In this document: positions 1 to 20,775 of the stretch, piece after piece
How positions within the stretch are numbered: position 1 is the first letter of the stretch
How the letters are laid out: every line of letters starts with the position of its first letter
NCBI GenBank assembly: GCA_017547385.1
Contig: JAFYPU010000009.1
Location: forward strand, 1 to 44,075
From: Bacteroidaceae bacterium
Lineage (GTDB): Bacteria; Bacteroidota; Bacteroidia; Bacteroidales; Bacteroidaceae
Reading direction: 5' to 3'
Length of the DNA: 44,075 nucleotides
Made by a program: the position numbers and the translations under genes
The notes under the pieces: generated by a model
The model's database searches: none
Told to the model about the DNA's origin: nothing
Seen by the model: only the letters and a program-made list of their open reading frames with translations

Positions 1-503
1 AATTGCTTTCAGATTAGTATCTTTGCATTGGTAAGAACAACATCTCATGAAACAAAATGAGTGGGCAATGCGTTGTGAATTGCTTTCAGATTAGTATCTT
101 TGCATTGGTAAGAACAACGGTGTGCAGATTATAGAGGAAGTCGGCAGGGTTGTGAATTGCTTTCAGATTAGTATCTTTGCATTGGTAAGAACAACATAAG
201 CAACTAACAGACGAACAAGTAGAGCGTTGTGAATTGCTTTCAGATTAGTATCTTTGCATTGGTAAGAACAACGTACAATTAATGAACTTCGTAGAGCAAC
301 CGGTTGTGAATTGCTTTCAGATTAGTATCTTTGCATTGGTAAGAACAACCTTCACCGCCTGTTATAAAATCTTGAAATTGTTGTGAATTGCTTTCAGATT
401 AGTATCTTTGCATTGGTAAGAACAACGTGTTTGCAAAAATGCGCCCAAGATGCCAGGTTGTGAATTGCTTTCAGATTAGTATCTTTGCATTGGTAAGAAC
501 AAC
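1..503 (+). CRISPR. Type II-C CRISPR array, 7 repeats and 6 spacers visible
   Basis: The repeat is 47 bp, begins GTTGTGAATTGC and ends GGTAAGAACAAC. Copies start at 72, 149, 226, 303, 380 and 457; a first copy at 1-41 lacks its first 6 bases because the window begins inside it, so the array continues to the left. All copies are identical, including the last one at 457-503, so there is no decayed terminal repeat. All six spacers are exactly 30 bp (42-71, 119-148, 196-225, 273-302, 350-379, 427-456). The crRNA strand is taken as plus because the tracrRNA anti-repeat at 6426-6450 pairs with the 5' half of the repeat read on this strand. The array therefore converges on the cas operon, as in Neisseria II-C loci. 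No spacer matches elsewhere in the window were seen. Confidence 0.98.
72..102 (+). promoter_or_regulatory. Promoter embedded in each CRISPR repeat (shown for the repeat at 72)
   Basis: Repeat bases 1-4 are GTTG and bases 24-31 are TATCTTTG, a perfect match to the Bacteroidetes -7 box TAnnTTTG; the spacing is 19 nt. The same layout (TTG, 19 nt, TATCTTTG) stands before rpsA at 20746-20775. Transcription would be expected to start near repeat base 36, giving about 11 nt of repeat, one spacer and the next repeat. The box is seen; promoter activity is inferred by analogy with repeat-borne promoters known in Neisseria meningitidis II-C arrays. Confidence 0.6.
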
Positions 504-584
504 TCATTCTTTGTAAATATCAGCACTGCAATGGGTTACCAATGAAAATAGAAAAGAAAATTCAAACATGTTTTTACCAAACAG

Positions 585-625
585 AGAGGCCGATACTTGA
601 AAAAGTGTTGGCCTCTTTGCTTTTA
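585..625 (+). terminator. Terminator between array and cas2
   Basis: A 14-bp stem (585-598 with 603-616, two G-U pairs) closed by a GAAA tetraloop is followed by TTTGCTTTT on the plus strand. It suits the end of the array transcript. The same hairpin may also stop the cas operon coming from the right (cas2 ends at 639), though the T-run on that strand is weak. Confidence 0.75.
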
Positions 626-638
626 AGTTTTCGGAAAA

Positions 639-1031
<393 letters not shown>

Positions 1032-1970
1032 TTATTCTATCTCCGGATAAATGATTTTTCGGATTTCTCCTCCAAAACATTTTGCCAGTGATGCAGTTGT
1101 TGTTGAAGCTGCAATCATTAGCGGACTTCGTTTTCCGGAAATTTGAACATCTATTGTTGGTATGGAAAGCAGCAGAGCTTTCAAGTCCTTTGTTAATTCT
1201 TCATAGTCTTGGCCGCTTTTAACGATATTGAGCACCAACTCATCTACGTATGGCCGGTAGGGTTCCATAATATCATCTGCCAAACAATAGGCATTGTAAC
1301 GATTGTGATGGTGAATACCCAAGGTAGGAAGTAGTCCGCTCGAAACCAATGCTCTTGCTATTAAGGCTCGCAGAATGGCATATCCGTAGTTAAGTAGATT
1401 GTTAGGTGGGGCAGCTTCTCTTCCTCTTACGAATTTGTCAATATAAGGTATAAACAGATTTTTCCAATAATAGGCAGCCGCTCTTCCCTCCAAATTGTCG
1501 GAATCACCGCTTTTTACGTCTGAAGCCCAAACATTCATACATTTGCTTTCAGCCGATGTGTGCTTGCGCAGTACAGCTGCTTGATTTTCTATCTTAGCTT
1601 TGATGGTTTGTTGCCACAATTGTTTGCGCAGTGGCAGGCTGGAGTTGATTTGGTCGGTAAATCGCTCTTGTTGTATGGTATTGCCGGAAAGTGGCAGTAA
1701 TAGTCCGGCAGGCATACTTCTCGCGTCGCAGCTGACAACAGCAGTATTATTGGCAAGAAGTGCCTCCATCAGCCCTTGTGTGAGAGTGATTTGTTTGTTG
1801 TCAAGCACCACCACTCCAATGTCCTCCACCGGAATTGTCCTAACAGATTCCGTTTTTATCACTTCGCATACGGTAGTGCTTTTCTCCACTTCCGGCATTT
1901 TTATCACCAGTTGTTGATTGCGCAGCGATAAGTAAGCCGGATTGCCGAAGTATAAAGTACGTTTTATCAT
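1032..1970 (-). CDS. cas1: CRISPR-associated integrase Cas1
   Basis: A type II Cas1 of 312 residues, the metal-dependent integrase that inserts protospacers into the array. The protein begins MIKRTLYFGNPAYLS, the usual start of II-C Cas1. An upstream in-frame ATG at 1997 would add nine residues, but AGGAG stands five bases before the ATG at 1970, so 1970 is chosen. The segments with the metal ligands are visible: EGRAAAYYW (glutamate), then GIHHHNRYNAYCLADDIMEPYRP (histidine and DD/E, here split by the line of the fold). It lies 72 nt after cas9 and 60 nt before cas2 in the same direction, consistent with one transcript. Confidence 0.96.
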   Translation of the reverse strand: MIKRTLYFGNPAYLSLRNQQLVIKMPEVEKSTTVCEVIKTESVRTIPVEDIGVVVLDNKQITLTQGLMEALLANNTAVVSCDARSMPAGLLLPLSGNTIQQERFTDQINSSLPLRKQLWQQTIKAKIENQAAVLRKHTSAESKCMNVWASDVKSGDSDNLEGRAAAYYWKNLFIPYIDKFVRGREAAPPNNLLNYGYAILRALIARALVSSGLLPTLGIHHHNRYNAYCLADDIMEPYRPYVDELVLNIVKSGQDYEELTKDLKALLLSIPTIDVQISGKRSPLMIAASTTTASLAKCFGGEIRKIIYPEIE

Positions 1971-2042
1971 TACTACTCCTATTTTGTTATAAAACAATAT
2001 GGGCTGTTACGCACAGAACGCAACAGCCCACTATTTCTCAGA

Positions 2043-5000
2043 TTAGTATTCGCCCACAGCTACGATTTGGCCAATATGATTTACGCGAACTTTGACTATT
2101 TTATCCAATCCTTTAGAACTTCGAAAATCTCTCCATGTAATACCTTTTAATTGAATAGATGTATCAACAATAGATGTCTCCAAATGATGTCTAAACACAT
2201 AATTTTTATATGAGAATTTCTGAACCCTAAACAAGTTCGGACTGATTATTGCATAGTTCTCCGGATTCAGCAAATCCACATCTTTAGGATCAAAACCTGT
2301 AGTTTCATTAGGAAATACAAAGTACTCGTTTTGCTTCAAGGTATAAAGGAATTCCCATCCATCATCAGCCCGATAGTTTTTATCAATTACCGGTAATCCC
2401 TGATTAACCCTCTCTACAACTTCATAAAATGAAACCACATTCTCATCCAATTCGTAAATCATATTACCATCATCATCCAATTTTGGTTGCCCATTTTTAT
2501 CTAACACAGGCTTTCTGTAGATGGCAACATGGTGATTATTACCAGTGTTCACGAAGTCTACGGGAATTCTATTACCCTTTTCATCAGTAATATAATTTCC
2601 CTCTTTATCTCGTTTTTCATGGATAGCCAACGCATTGCTTATTCCATAAATTGCAACGCGCTTGATGCTAATTCCTTTTTCTTTATTAAGCCAAATCGGA
2701 TTTTCTTCTAAATTAGAGAATGCCTTTTTAGCGTCACCATATTCCTTTATACGCTCTTGTAAGATGCGTCTGATTTTGCGATCCACCACTTTGTCTATTT
2801 TCAAGTCGGGAGTGATGGGTTTACGAATGGTGTAAACAGTTTCCAGTGTATAGGTCTTTACTTTGAGGGGTACACAGATACCTTTGTCTTTATTTATCCA
2901 CAACGGATTCTTATCTAATGCATTCTTCCCGGTAAAGGCTTTCTTGGCGTCTCCGTCAAATTGGTGTAGCCGCTTCTGCAATGCTTCTCTGTAGGCCCGA
3001 CAACAAACAGAGCTAATCTTTATTTCATCAAAAGCAGCATTTATTTTTTCCTCTTTTGTAACATACTCCTTATGGCTGCCATAAATGGTTTCGAGGTGCA
3101 GCTGGCCTCTCGGTGTTTGTTGCACCTTGGCGTGTCCACCTTTCTTCGATGGAATGTTATTTATATTGTTGGTTACAACTTTATTCTTAGCCTTGATAGA
3201 TATGAGTATGTCCTGCAAGTGTTTCTTAGCTTCAGCACGGAAAGTTCCAAGCGGAATCGGAGCGATGGCTTTTCCGTCTTTGAAGTATTTATTTCTTATC
3301 AAGTACTCATTAGAGTTTACTTTATCACTTGCATTCTTGTTATTGTAGTATTGTATGAATACATCTTTTGTAAAGGCCACAGTGAGTGCGTCCATCGCAT
3401 GGTGTCGATGGTCGTTTCGTTTGCTCCAATCTTTGATGCGTCCAATGACTTTTCCGTCGTGGTTGGTGTGGTATTCCACTAAATCTTGTGCTTCATATTT
3501 CTCCCAATTCAGCTCTTTCATGGTGTCTACCAATTGCCAATCATTGCGCAATTGGTCGGTAATGCTGCCGGTGGTAGCCACCACTCTGCGGCATATATCG
3601 CCCAACATGGAGAGTGCTCGTTTGGCAATATATTGTGTATTGCGCAAGTCTCTATCCACAAAGTCTTCGGGAATATCCTCTTCACGCATTTTGAGTTTGC
3701 GCAATTTTCCTTTTTTGTCCTTGAAGAGACTTTCGCAAACATTGAGGTAGCGTTTAAGCCCGTCTTCTCCGTATTTCTCCAGAACAAAGTCATAGGCTGT
3801 CTTGTTGCCTTTTTCAATGTTTACACTTCGCACTTCCAAAGTCTTGTTTGAGAATGAATCATCAAACAAGCGTGCTTTGGGAATGATGTGCTCAATATCA
3901 TATTCCTTGCTGAAAAGTTTTTCACGTGGAATGTAGGTATCTGAATACGGTGTTTTATATCCGTTGTCTTTCAACTCCTCATACAGACGATAACGTATAA
4001 CATCGTTGCGTGTGGGATAAGTAATACCAAACTCTTCTGAAAGGATTTTGCGAATTTGTTCCTGCTCTTTAGTGGCAGAGGCAATGGCTCTTGAGAGCTC
4101 TTCACGCTCTTTTTGATTTTTCTTTAGATCGCGAGCCAGTTCCACTCTGATTTCATCCGGCTTGCCATAGGTGCTGATGATTTCGTTTACCACATTGACC
4201 ATTTGGTTAAGGATTTTCTCAACAACCGGATTGCGCAGGCTGTTTTTAGGCAGAAGTTCCAAATGCTCTTTCAGCTCTTTGGCGGCAATCTCTTCCTTTG
4301 TAAGCGATGTCGCAGAGTGGCGATAACCTGCCTTTTGGGAAGCTTCATCATATTGCAAACCCGATTTTAGATGAGGAAGAATCTTCACAATGGCTTTGGC
4401 ACTCAGACTTCCATAATCGCTTTCGAAAGCAACATTGGCAAGAATGCGTGCGTATTCTTTTTCAAAGTTGCAAAGCTTCTGCAATTTCTCTATCAGCTTT
4501 CCATCGCCTGTAGGGGTGCTGTCGCTTTCAAAAGAGTAGAGCAGATGCCACAGTGCGTATACATCTTGTGCAAAGGGCTTATCTTCGGAGTTGTATGTCA
4601 ATATCTCGGAATTCCACCCCAAGGCTTCAAAGATGGCTCGCACTTGTTCCTTTATGGTCGCGGCATCTTGCTTGAAGTCGATAGGTTCATGTCCTGAGTG
4701 CTCCAAAATTTCGCTGTATGCTTTATATAAATTGTGGAGTGTTTTGTTACCGCTTATTTCTATGAAGTTCAAATCCAGTCCGGCACTATCTTCAGATAGC
4801 AATTTGAGCACCTGAGTTTTTGAAAGTTTTTCGCGTATCGAGAGTTCTTCGGCCAACCGCTTTTTCTCTTCTTGCGTCAGTTTACGTTTGCCAGCTTCTC
4901 TCCAGTTCTCGGTTTGAGGAACTTCACCCTCTTGTCCTTGCTTGTTGGTTGAAGCTTTACGTTTCTTTGGCTTGGCATCGACAACAAGCACTTCTGCATT

Positions 5001-6329
5001 GTTCAGTGTTTGCCAAATTTTGAATTCTTGGAATAAAGGAGAAGATCTTGGTATAACGCGACTGCCGATAACTATTGTTTTTGTTTGACCGTTTTCAGTG
5101 ATTTCAAGATTTTTCCTTTCAAATTCACAATAGCTGATAAGTCCTTTTTGACTTTTCAGACGGCGCTGATAGAATATGGCAGTATCTCGCACTTCTTGTT
5201 TGAGAGCACGTGTCAGTTCCGGATGAAACTCCGCCTGCTTTTCCCAAATGGTTTCAAATTCGTCTAAGTAGTCTTGACGATAAAATACCGTATTCTTAAG
5301 ACTCACGTTCGGATTTTCGTCTAACGACTTCATTAGTGCCTGTCCCACCGTGAGGTGATTGAAATGCAAACTTTTGCTTCTGTCACTAATAGCCCCGAGA
5401 TAGCCACTGGAAGAGTTGATATCGTTGTTTATTTCTTGCAGTACGATTGCCAGCTCTTCAGGGTGCATTTTTTCATGCACTGCTTTAGCTCTCCATTCAT
5501 AGTTTTCAATCTTTTGCTCAAAGCCCTTTTTCTCACGCTTCAATCCTTTCAACATCATTCTCTCTGTTTGAATTTCAGATTGTGCGTTCTCCTCGTCCCA
5601 TGTGGTTTTAGTTTCTTCCCAAACGAAGTGTTTGGCCAAAATTGCCCAAGTCTGACTTTTGTTCTTTCCCTTAAGTTCTTCTTTCACCGCATCGGTGAGC
5701 ACCTCCGGATAATATACCGACTGGCAAGCCCAAACTTTATCAAATTCCTCCTGTAAGTCGGAGCGATAGAAATCGGGCAAAGCCTTTTTGCCTTCTCTCA
5801 GCAAATCTGAACAAAGTTGTCCGGGTGTGATACCTTCATCATAGAGGCGTTTTGCTACCTCCATACCATCTATCAACTTGCCGTCTTCTTCTCCTTTTGC
5901 TTTGCGATTGCTTTTATAACCTCTCTTTTTGTTGATCATCAACAACACACGCGCAAATTCGTCCAACGAGATTTCTTCTGTGGCCGCCTTTGCACGCAGA
6001 CGATAGGTCTCAAAGGTCGTGGCATTGCCATTCTCTGACAATATGGTTGCGTCTGTTATCAGGTGGTGTGATTTCAGTAGCTTTATCAATGCTTGGCGAC
6101 GCAATTTATAGCGTTGCAGATTTCGGCGCATTCCACGCTTCAAAGTGCGAGCTGAATTTGTTTCGATGCTTTTTCCTTTTTCGAAGTTCTGCGCTTCATC
6201 CACAGTCAGCGGATTCACTCGTACTCCCAAACGTATGATGGACGATTTTTCTTCGGAATGTTCTGCTTCGTTTACTAATGCCCAACCGATGCTTGTTGTA
6301 CCCAAGTCGAGACCTAAAATCTTTTTCAT
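2043..6329 (-). CDS. cas9: CRISPR-associated endonuclease Cas9, type II-C
   Basis: A 1428-residue RNA-guided DNA nuclease, at the large end for II-C. RuvC-I is at residues 4-16 (GLDLGTTSIGW, catalytic D8). The arginine-rich bridge helix is at about 60-86. RuvC-II is EIRVELARDL with E730; HNH is DIEHIIPKARLF with H814 and N828; RuvC-III is DHRHHAMDAL with H977 and D980. All catalytic positions are intact. A low-complexity KPKKRKA linker lies near 453-459. The C-terminal PAM-interacting region contains two copies of a DAKKAF...NPxWxNKxKGI module (about 1117-1151 and 1190-1220). It is the first gene of the operon and its start faces the tracrRNA gene. Confidence 0.99.
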   Translation of the reverse strand: MKKILGLDLGTTSIGWALVNEAEHSEEKSSIIRLGVRVNPLTVDEAQNFEKGKSIETNSARTLKRGMRRNLQRYKLRRQALIKLLKSHHLITDATILSENGNATTFETYRLRAKAATEEISLDEFARVLLMINKKRGYKSNRKAKGEEDGKLIDGMEVAKRLYDEGITPGQLCSDLLREGKKALPDFYRSDLQEEFDKVWACQSVYYPEVLTDAVKEELKGKNKSQTWAILAKHFVWEETKTTWDEENAQSEIQTERMMLKGLKREKKGFEQKIENYEWRAKAVHEKMHPEELAIVLQEINNDINSSSGYLGAISDRSKSLHFNHLTVGQALMKSLDENPNVSLKNTVFYRQDYLDEFETIWEKQAEFHPELTRALKQEVRDTAIFYQRRLKSQKGLISYCEFERKNLEITENGQTKTIVIGSRVIPRSSPLFQEFKIWQTLNNAEVLVVDAKPKKRKASTNKQGQEGEVPQTENWREAGKRKLTQEEKKRLAEELSIREKLSKTQVLKLLSEDSAGLDLNFIEISGNKTLHNLYKAYSEILEHSGHEPIDFKQDAATIKEQVRAIFEALGWNSEILTYNSEDKPFAQDVYALWHLLYSFESDSTPTGDGKLIEKLQKLCNFEKEYARILANVAFESDYGSLSAKAIVKILPHLKSGLQYDEASQKAGYRHSATSLTKEEIAAKELKEHLELLPKNSLRNPVVEKILNQMVNVVNEIISTYGKPDEIRVELARDLKKNQKEREELSRAIASATKEQEQIRKILSEEFGITYPTRNDVIRYRLYEELKDNGYKTPYSDTYIPREKLFSKEYDIEHIIPKARLFDDSFSNKTLEVRSVNIEKGNKTAYDFVLEKYGEDGLKRYLNVCESLFKDKKGKLRKLKMREEDIPEDFVDRDLRNTQYIAKRALSMLGDICRRVVATTGSITDQLRNDWQLVDTMKELNWEKYEAQDLVEYHTNHDGKVIGRIKDWSKRNDHRHHAMDALTVAFTKDVFIQYYNNKNASDKVNSNEYLIRNKYFKDGKAIAPIPLGTFRAEAKKHLQDILISIKAKNKVVTNNINNIPSKKGGHAKVQQTPRGQLHLETIYGSHKEYVTKEEKINAAFDEIKISSVCCRAYREALQKRLHQFDGDAKKAFTGKNALDKNPLWINKDKGICVPLKVKTYTLETVYTIRKPITPDLKIDKVVDRKIRRILQERIKEYGDAKKAFSNLEENPIWLNKEKGISIKRVAIYGISNALAIHEKRDKEGNYITDEKGNRIPVDFVNTGNNHHVAIYRKPVLDKNGQPKLDDDGNMIYELDENVVSFYEVVERVNQGLPVIDKNYRADDGWEFLYTLKQNEYFVFPNETTGFDPKDVDLLNPENYAIISPNLFRVQKFSYKNYVFRHHLETSIVDTSIQLKGITWRDFRSSKGLDKIVKVRVNHIGQIVAVGEY

Positions 6330-6389: not shown

Positions 6390-6421
6390 TTTGGATATTT
6401 TATAAAAAAGCATTTATTTTG
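6390..6421 (+). promoter_or_regulatory. tracrRNA promoter
   Basis: TTTG at 6390-6393 and TTATTTTG at 6414-6421 (one mismatch to TAnnTTTG) are 20 nt apart. A start about five bases downstream falls at 6426, exactly where the anti-repeat begins. Confidence 0.6.
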
Positions 6422-6425
6422 CCTG

Positions 6426-6512
6426 TACTAATTTGAAGCAATTCACAATAAGGATTATTCCGTTGTGAAAACATTAAAGTGGCCCTTGACCTTTGTCTCG
6501 GGTCATTTTTAT
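6426..6512 (+). ncRNA. tracrRNA of the Cas9 system
   Basis: The anti-repeat TACTAATTTGAAGCAATTCA continues to 6449 and pairs with repeat bases 1-25 through nearly all positions: one unpaired repeat base and G-U pairs where the RNA has U against the repeat's G. Downstream, AAGGATTATTCCGTTGTG and the following AAAACATT resemble the nexus region of other Bacteroidetes II-C tracrRNAs (recalled, not searched). The RNA ends in a TGACC/GGTCA hairpin (6487-6505) with TTTTT at 6506-6510. It is encoded divergently from cas9. The length is about 85 nt. Confidence 0.9.
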
Positions 6513-6856
6513 TGGCTTATGTTGTGTGTCGGAAGTCAGGGTTGTTTCTTGGACTTTCCTATTTCATCTTCATAACGTTCTTCCATCGTAATTCGGAACG
6601 TCTTTTTCCTTAAACTTTTTCACGTGCGCACGCGCGCACTGGAAGTTTTCAAACTTTATCTGCTCTTCTGTCACTTTTCAACGATATTTATTGAAAATCA
6701 AAGGAATGTCGAGTGACAGATACCGTGACAGATGGTATTTGCACTCACATTTTCTACCATCATCAATGCTTTTCTAAAAAATGATGGATGTTGACCAAAA
6801 GATTAAAGCTCTATGTTTATTTGTTGGAGGGGGGAGATGAAAGGGCTGAACAAAAC
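6513..6856. other. Gene-free gap with nested inverted repeat
   Basis: No credible gene is seen. An inverted repeat TCTGTCAC (6667-6674) / GTGACAGA (6713-6720) encloses a second one, TTTTCA (6675-6680) / TGAAAA (6692-6697). GTGACAGAT is repeated directly at 6713 and 6727. The stretch ACGTGCGCACGCGCGCAC near 6632 is alternating purine-pyrimidine. It could be the remains of a decayed insertion next to the CRISPR locus; that is inference. Confidence 0.5.
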
Positions 6857-13700: not shown

Positions 13701-13807
13701 TTGTTTTGCACTCGCCTTGTACACTTTCGCAAAGCGCAAGTTAGGCGGTGGCTCGGCAAAAAAGCAAAAAAAAGGGATTTTTGCTTTGTTTTGCACTCGC
13801 CTTGCAC
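13701..13807 (+). repeat. Direct repeat of 22 bp upstream of the NifU-like gene
   Basis: TTGTTTTGCACTCGCCTTG plus YAC occurs at 13701-13722 and again at 13786-13807 with one difference. The second copy runs into the -7 box; after the first copy the box is decayed (ACTTTCG instead of AACTTTG). This looks like a duplicated promoter region. Between them, AAAGCAAAAA (13761-13770) and TTTTTGCTTT (13778-13787) form a perfect 10-bp hairpin that may end the upstream transcript. Confidence 0.75.
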
Positions 13808-13815
13808 TAACTTTG
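13785..13815 (+). promoter_or_regulatory. Promoter of the NifU-like/GGGtGRT operon
   Basis: TTTG (13785-13788), 19 nt, TAACTTTG (13808-13815): both boxes are perfect for the Bacteroidetes primary sigma factor. The same TTTG/19/TAACTTTG pair precedes rpsP. The strength suggested fits the skewed codon use of the two genes that follow. Confidence 0.8.
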
Positions 13816-20744: not shown

Positions 20745-20775
20745 ATTGTCAATAATAATTTTGGATGTATCTTTG
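20745..20775 (+). promoter_or_regulatory. rpsA promoter
   Basis: ATTG (20745-20748), 19 nt, TATCTTTG (20768-20775); the start codon is 62 bp downstream. It has the same -7 octamer and spacing as the promoter within each CRISPR repeat. Confidence 0.7.

Follow-up and report, generated by a model that had tools for sequence, protein, structure and literature searches.

In the type II-C CRISPR-Cas system of Neisseria meningitidis the promoters of the crRNAs are reportedly encoded in the repeats. For the II-C system of Campylobacter jejuni such per-repeat promoters have been mapped, with transcription starting at base 5 of the spacer (PMC3656092). A survey of II-C systems by Feussner and colleagues, in the text available, states per-repeat promoters for II-C in general and places spacer acquisition at the last repeat (PMC12080349). 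The same text names no phylum-specific promoter box and treats II-C as having a single reading direction (PMC12080349), whereas we found 14 forward arrays in the Bacteroidota (see below).

A repeat-encoded promoter has also been proposed in the Bacteroidota, for the II-C array of Flavobacterium columnare, which, like the array described here, is transcribed toward the leader. In this case, however, the repeats are 36 bp long, the proposal was made from a TTG located 33 bp upstream of each spacer together with eight RNA reads, and no -7 box is named for the repeats in the available text (PMC8092290). In Flavobacterium psychrophilum CN46, which has a II-C array with 46-bp repeats, array transcription was seen by RNA-seq and a promoter in each repeat was proposed, but the repeats were called for the TTG only (35 bp upstream of the spacer) and the motif TAnnTTTG was assigned to the cas9 promoter (PMC10309648). 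CRISPR1 of Riemerella anatipestifer shares with our locus the 47-nt repeats and the anti-repeat core, and its new spacers enter by cas2, as is predicted here (PMC5006608, PMC6008519), but its authors report that no promoter was found in the 47-nt repeats and propose leader promoters instead (PMC5006608). The type IIC repeats of Bacteroides fragilis are likewise 47 nt long; the consulted portion of that paper notes long repeats, up to 48 bp, as a trait of Bacteroidetes II-C systems and names no II-C repeat promoter (PMC5704556).

The promoters recognized by the sigma factor sigma-ABfr have the -7 consensus TAnnTTTG, as quoted in PMC7366714, with motif centers at -7 and -33; in Flavobacterium johnsoniae no -33 motif could be identified (as quoted in PMC7366714). 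Already known, therefore, are repeat-encoded II-C promoters in Campylobacter and a Flavobacterium proposal from TTG alone. A TAnnTTTG box placed in a CRISPR repeat was not found in the open-access literature that we searched, including the available text of PMC10309648 and PMC7366714, and such a -7 box appears to be unpublished there.

Here we analyze a II-C locus of a Bacteroidaceae bacterium, for which an earlier note, made from the DNA sequence alone, had suggested a promoter in every repeat. The locus is like those of C. jejuni and N. meningitidis in its cas9-cas1-cas2 gene order, in having one promoter per repeat and in a single 3' processing step, the last two being predictions here, and comparison supports the Neisseria-like principle that the note had proposed. 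The systems differ in the position of the promoter: in C. jejuni and N. meningitidis a -10-type box lies at the 3' end of the repeat and transcription starts in the spacer, whereas our repeat has a Bacteroidota -7 box in its middle and a predicted start inside the repeat, approximately 9–14 nt before the spacer, which would leave a repeat-derived 5' tag on the transcript.

Organization of the locus

The window (the whole stretch of 44,075 nt that was analyzed) is contig C7 of genome G000, a 2.35 Mb assembly of 34 contigs, and its first position falls inside a CRISPR array. The locus is a type II-C CRISPR-Cas9 system, in which a cas9-cas1-cas2 operon adjoins the array and a putative tracrRNA gene lies next to cas9 (Table 1). 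As a check for csn2 and cas4, we listed the open reading frames of at least 100 aa between cas9, cas1, cas2 and the array; the only ones present overlap those genes (family searches extended as far as cas9). Named relatives of the Cas9 protein are nearly all from Bacteroidota. The six complete repeats are identical and 47 nt long, and follow each other in steps of 77 nt. The first of them matches the Rfam family CRISPR-DR49 with 39.3 bits, slightly below the gathering score of 41. The anti-repeat of the putative tracrRNA pairs with bases 1–26 of the + strand repeat (duplex of -35.2 kcal/mol, including a 13-base exact complement), and the putative tracrRNA has a z-score of -4.4.

Table 1. Features of the II-C locus and of a comparison promoter in the window.
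Feature	Position	Strand	Remarks
Partial repeat (repeat bases 7–47)	1–41	+	-7 box 18–25; contig edge
Complete 47-nt repeat	72–118	+	TTG 73–75; -7 box TATCTTTG 95–102
Complete repeat	149–195	+	-7 box 172–179
Complete repeat	226–272	+	-7 box 249–256
Complete repeat	303–349	+	-7 box 326–333
Complete repeat	380–426	+	-7 box 403–410
Last, leader-side repeat	457–503	+	-7 box 480–487
Leader, between array and cas2	504–638	+	Identity rests on position; downstream of array transcription
17-bp hairpin followed by U-rich stretch, terminator-like, in leader	582–619	+	-27.9 kcal/mol, z -5.7
cas2	639–971	-	TIGR01573, 65 bits
cas1 (type II)	1032–1997	-	TIGR03639, 307 bits
cas9 (1428 aa)	2043–6329	-	TIGR01865, 507 bits
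Putative tracrRNA promoter, TTTG-N20-TTATTTTG	6390–6421	+	Identified by eye; one mismatch to TAnnTTTG
Putative tracrRNA	6426–6515	+	Anti-repeat 6426–6449, hairpins after; 3' end approximate
Comparison promoter TTG-N19-TATCTTTG, so-called rpsA	20746–20775	+	Gene name from the earlier note only

Six further identical copies of the repeat are found at the end of another contig (C4:173720–174151, + strand). These very probably represent the older end of the same array; the two contigs were left unjoined. At the far end of the C4 copies lies a degenerate oldest repeat (C4:173644–173690, or 1425–1471 of the extracted locus L001), which agrees with the intact repeat in 32 of 47 bases and is placed 76 nt before the next one. 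Its box is damaged (TGTTTTTG), and therefore the oldest spacer may lack drive from its own repeat and is possibly silent. Because the + strand repeat pairs with the anti-repeat and the degenerate repeat is at the opposite end, we take the reading direction of the array to be from the old end, on C4, to the leader beside cas2. The leader is then downstream of the array and cannot drive it, in agreement with the suggestion of the earlier note that spacer expression would be independent of the leader.

A host-type promoter box within the repeat

The sequence GTTG-N19-TATCTTTG is present in all six complete repeats, on the + strand, as the earlier note had observed, and nowhere else in the window; TTG-N19-TATCTTTG is found in the six complete copies on C4 as well. 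Within the repeat, TTG occupies bases 2–4 and TATCTTTG bases 24–31, and the latter fits the -7 motif TAnnTTTG of the sigma-ABfr promoter. As a -33 element, the TTG has the commonest spacing of the host (N19), but it falls short of a full TTTG and coincides with the general end of such repeats. The note had equated boxes and spacing with those of the so-called rpsA promoter; this stands for TTG-N19-TATCTTTG, but not for GTTG, as the preceding base in that promoter is A. Genome-wide, GTTG-N18..21-TATCTTTG occurs 15 times, of which 12 in the array (reversed-pattern control: 3), and the 12 complete repeats, being copies of one another, count as a single observation.

To describe the promoter idiom of the host we used 20 stretches of the genome plus the window (417 kb), in which coding regions were assigned with a crude ORF caller. 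Per kb and strand, TAnnTTTG is found 1.29 times in noncoding DNA and 0.27 times in coding DNA. Once an interspersed repeat family with boxes of its own is left out, TTG precedes the 93 boxes in upstream sense at N19 in 14 cases and at N20 in 10 (together 24/93), and at any other spacing between 10 and 29 in at most seven; in coding DNA the corresponding numbers are six and four (10/190). The commonest nn in the 93 boxes is TC (14/93) and the commonest next base is C (63/93), and our repeat carries both. The complete motif TTG-N19-TATCTTTG is found outside the array at 10 sites in the 417 kb, nine of which are noncoding although 86% of the bases are called as coding. One interspersed repeat family accounts for six of the 10; the remaining four are all noncoding and located 61–138 nt before an ORF. 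Because its N19 spacing, the TC and the following C match the commonest choices of the host, the repeat looks like a good promoter by the host's own usage, and by these comparisons the box in every complete repeat is a host-type promoter box.

Conservation of the box among II-C loci

Two sets of loci were compared, neither of them random: 100 loci chosen by us from a search with the TIGR01865 Cas9 model, mostly from the top of three match lists, and the best 80 of 525 named loci found with an alignment of 19 Cas9 proteins. Arrays with a repeat that could be oriented, for which repeat bases 1–17 alone were used, were obtained for 82 of 101 (window included) and 51 of 80 loci, the other 19/101 and 29/80 having no usable array. 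Identical repeats were counted once, and some loci are apparent duplicates between the named and unnamed sets (L181 = L042, L239 = L098). The group referred to as Bacteroidia includes L214, which has a Bacillota title and is probably mis-binned, and L229, titled Fibrimonadaceae.

In this group, 94 arrays with repeats of 44–49 nt run opposite to cas9 (long reverse arrays), and a strict TAnnTTTG is present in 68 of their 87 distinct repeats. Clustered at 80% identity, 23 of the 39 repeat clusters contain the strict box, compared with 2.0 on average and at most 8 in 200 dinucleotide shuffles; on the opposite strand the box was found in none of the 39. Most boxes start at base 24 of the repeat, others at 23, 25, 26 or 27, and one at 32, with the repeat length still at 44–49 nt. 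Such a shifting start at near-fixed length means that the word is kept, rather than the column. The six fixed columns of the box hold 1.4–2.0 bits, whereas the eight columns from two bases past the box hold at most 0.36 bits and are near random between clusters; these values are from 43 of 52 clusters aligned on the motif itself, which inflates the contrast. Of the 19 repeats that lack the strict box, 13 have one with a single mismatch near the usual place (two of these by eye). We treated the one-mismatch class as uninformative, since more than half of the clusters reach it after shuffling too.

None of the four reverse 36-nt repeats in the Bacteroidia group has the strict box. Among repeats from other classes of the phylum, it is present in five of 20 distinct ones and in three of 12 clusters (shuffles: mean 0.5, maximum 3). 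The 1157 internal repeat copies contain 11 substitutions, all outside the box (approximately two would be expected within it), a variation too low to show selection. As a control for other CRISPR types, 17 arrays from 16 of 20 non-type-II loci contained the box on neither strand, but this control is uninformative because repeats of 26–37 nt would rarely hold it by chance.

The GTTG at repeat bases 1–4 was rejected as promoter evidence: forward 36-nt arrays without a -7 box carry it too, and truncated terminal repeats mostly lose it. GTTG is a common end of such repeats and therefore weak evidence for a -33 element. For the promoter in each repeat that the earlier note had proposed, comparison supports the Bacteroidota-type -7 box and not the GTTG.

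Outside the Bacteroidia, the reverse 36-nt repeats of L109 and L112 have TAnnTTTG at base 21. Other reverse 36-nt repeats there (L099–L104, L107, L113, L138) end in TACATT, TAGATT or GATATT, resembling the -10 box at the repeat end of Campylobacter; the forward repeats of L110 and L137 end in GATATT too.

Pairing with the tracrRNA and tracrRNA promoters

For 29 loci that combine a strict box with a confident anti-repeat, we determined how far the continuous repeat:anti-repeat duplex extends. It includes the first base of the box in 25 of the 29, and each base of the TTTG in only three to five; in L083 the duplex spans repeat bases 1–30 and runs through the box. Conservation of the box thus appears to lie mostly beyond tracrRNA pairing. 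The tracrRNA genes have the motif as well: TAnnTTTG lies within a short stretch ahead of the anti-repeat in 22 of 36 loci, compared with 2 of 36 for a control stretch. The window's own site, TTATTTTG, contains no strict TAnnTTTG and is not among the 22.

Reading direction and forward arrays

II-C arrays are usually said to run toward the leader, but 14 Bacteroidota arrays share the direction of cas9 and lie downstream of the cas genes (L047, L049, L050, L052, L054–L056, L061, L062, L065, L071, L072, L110, L137). All have 36-nt repeats, and none of the 14 has the box in its repeat. In the 300 nt upstream of the array, TAnnTTTG is found anywhere in 12 of the 14. We rejected this bare count as evidence, because reverse flanks of equal length hold the box in 29 of 80 (27/68 for long and 2/12 for 36-nt repeats). 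Position, however, separates the two groups: at -90 to -94 of the array TAnnTTTG is present in 10 of 14 forward flanks and in one of 80 reverse flanks. In 11 of 14 forward flanks the box directly follows a stop codon, approximately 90–110 nt before the array, and its nn vary freely. The reading frame closed by this stop codon is conserved, ends in QLE(F/L/I)F and is taken to be cas2. The promoter thus seems to have moved along with the reading direction. A quick tree of Cas9 for 82 loci contains only three changes of direction, too few for a test of the link between direction and box as independent events. For two reverse loci (L067, L194) the array is not on the cas2 side, and reading toward the leader does not extend to these.

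Terminator-like sites were found on the 3' side in 14 of 100 long-repeat reverse arrays, whereas simple shuffles gave 1.2; for the 5' side the numbers are four of 68 and 0.

Truncation of the oldest repeat

If each repeat promotes the spacer that follows, the oldest spacer would need the 3' half of the oldest repeat. No spacer precedes this repeat, and therefore its pairing half is dispensable. Among reverse box-bearing arrays with the old end inside the locus, 29 of 51 have a terminal repeat that is truncated at the 5' side, and in 26 of these 29 the repeat is broken at the box or 5' of it. The p-value for the break position is 0.0006–0.0045 under a null limited to detectable breaks, as the search for terminal repeats needed most of the inner 14 bases or a high overall identity. 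Truncated terminal repeats usually lose the TTG, and a new TTG at N17–22 is present in seven of 26; because TTG is not regularly regained at -33, this element is probably optional. In forward arrays, six of 11 terminal repeats are short by 7–22 bases at the opposite, 3' end, and one further repeat is masked there. The II-C survey by Feussner and colleagues reports that most mutations of the oldest repeat lie in its first 15 nt, and argues that this repeat must stay a promoter (PMC12080349); the box gives their argument a concrete boundary.

Proposed mechanism and alternative explanations

We consider it highly likely that the 47-nt repeat is composed of two modules, an RNA part (approximately bases 1–25) and a promoter (bases 24–47), that transcription starts in each repeat and that the leader is not required for expression. 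The RNA module would pair with the tracrRNA and provide the 3' handle for the crRNA of the preceding spacer. In the DNA module, TATCTTTG would act as the -7 box of a promoter of the housekeeping sigma-ABfr type, read toward the leader, with the TTG at bases 2–4 as an optional -33 element. The housekeeping RNA polymerase would start a few bases past the box, at about bases 34–39 of each repeat, an offset derived from the names of the -7 and -33 elements. The precursor would consist of a repeat tag of about 9–14 nt, one spacer and the next repeat, so that the tracrRNA with RNase III or another nuclease would make the 3' cut only, and each spacer would probably be switched on separately. The promoter of the last repeat would read the leader only and end at the leader hairpin, which would also stop array transcripts before cas2; the leader would then serve in spacer acquisition and termination, rather than expression. 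Support so far comes from the motif, its conservation, its escape from pairing, the reading direction, the upstream box of forward arrays and its retention in truncated terminal repeats. On this basis sequence comparison strongly supports a promoter in the repeat; the polymerase start in the repeat, its exact position and the processing are steps that we infer. Speaking against the model are the 19 of 87 long reverse repeats and the four reverse 36-nt repeats that lack a strict box, the damaged box in the oldest repeat of G000, the usual loss of TTG from truncated terminal repeats, the mismatch in the window's putative tracrRNA promoter and the negative statement on Riemerella repeats (PMC5006608).

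The box could instead be kept for RNA reasons, as part of a longer repeat:anti-repeat duplex or as a site read by Cas9 or RNase III. A few loci such as L083, with a duplex that runs through the box, would agree with this, but the TTTG is so rarely paired, and the box so often retained in terminal repeats that have lost their 5' pairing half, that we regard it as very unlikely. Internal elements of repeats can guide integrases, and the repeat is copied at each acquisition, which could make TATCTTTG an element for integration by Cas1-Cas2 with an incidental likeness to a promoter. Such an element would not be expected to shift by several bases within repeats of near-fixed length, or to give the oldest repeat a reason to retain it, and forward II-C arrays place TA-nn-TTTG, with nn free, upstream of the array instead; this makes an integration element highly improbable.

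That the array is transcribed by read-through or from a single promoter located upstream of the old end, with the repeat boxes as inactive relics, is unlikely as well. Read-through is possible, and the boxes counted above in full 300-nt flanks of long reverse arrays, some of them within terminal repeats, could supply such a promoter. On the array's strand, however, there is no TAnnTTTG in the 1.5 kb upstream of the first intact repeat of the G000 array, and relics are not expected to persist across a class or at truncated ends. Most CRISPR types are read from the leader, and a leader that drives the array on the minus strand would mean that the earlier note had the direction wrong. We find this hardly credible, as it is the + strand repeat whose 5' half is matched by the anti-repeat of the tracrRNA-like gene upstream of cas9, with the duplex energy and exact complement given above, and the other strand of the repeat clusters is devoid of the box; in F. 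columnare, moreover, RNA reads run toward the leader, although only eight were mapped (PMC8092290).

Returning to the promoter in each repeat, we think it probable on balance that the Bacteroidota have a 44–49-nt two-module repeat with a complete promoter and a start inside, and two opposite layouts: reverse arrays in which every repeat carries a promoter, and forward 36-nt arrays served by a single promoter immediately behind the last cas stop codon. If so, their II-C systems would be split into two expression layouts, and the repeat-encoded crRNA promoters mapped in Campylobacter would extend into a large phylum that has its own, different type of promoter. In reverse arrays each new spacer would be born with its own promoter, and expression would not fall with distance from a single start. 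This would also correct a published report that 47-nt repeats of this kind lack a promoter. Any single repeat would provide Bacteroides-type hosts with a small natural promoter, and a minimal array would not need a leader.

An interspersed repeat in the host genome

An interspersed repeat with the core CTCGCCTTKCRCTATCTTTG is present in the window at 13796–13815 (+ strand) and at 103 places in the genome (43 + 60 copies at up to two mismatches; reversed-pattern control: 0), several of them in tandem at approximately 84–86 nt. Allowing one mismatch, 16 genomes of the genus contain 80, 86, 41 and 31 copies in four, three copies each in two and none in the other ten. Some copies have a TTG 19 nt before the box, and the repeat looks like a mobile or amplifying portable promoter.
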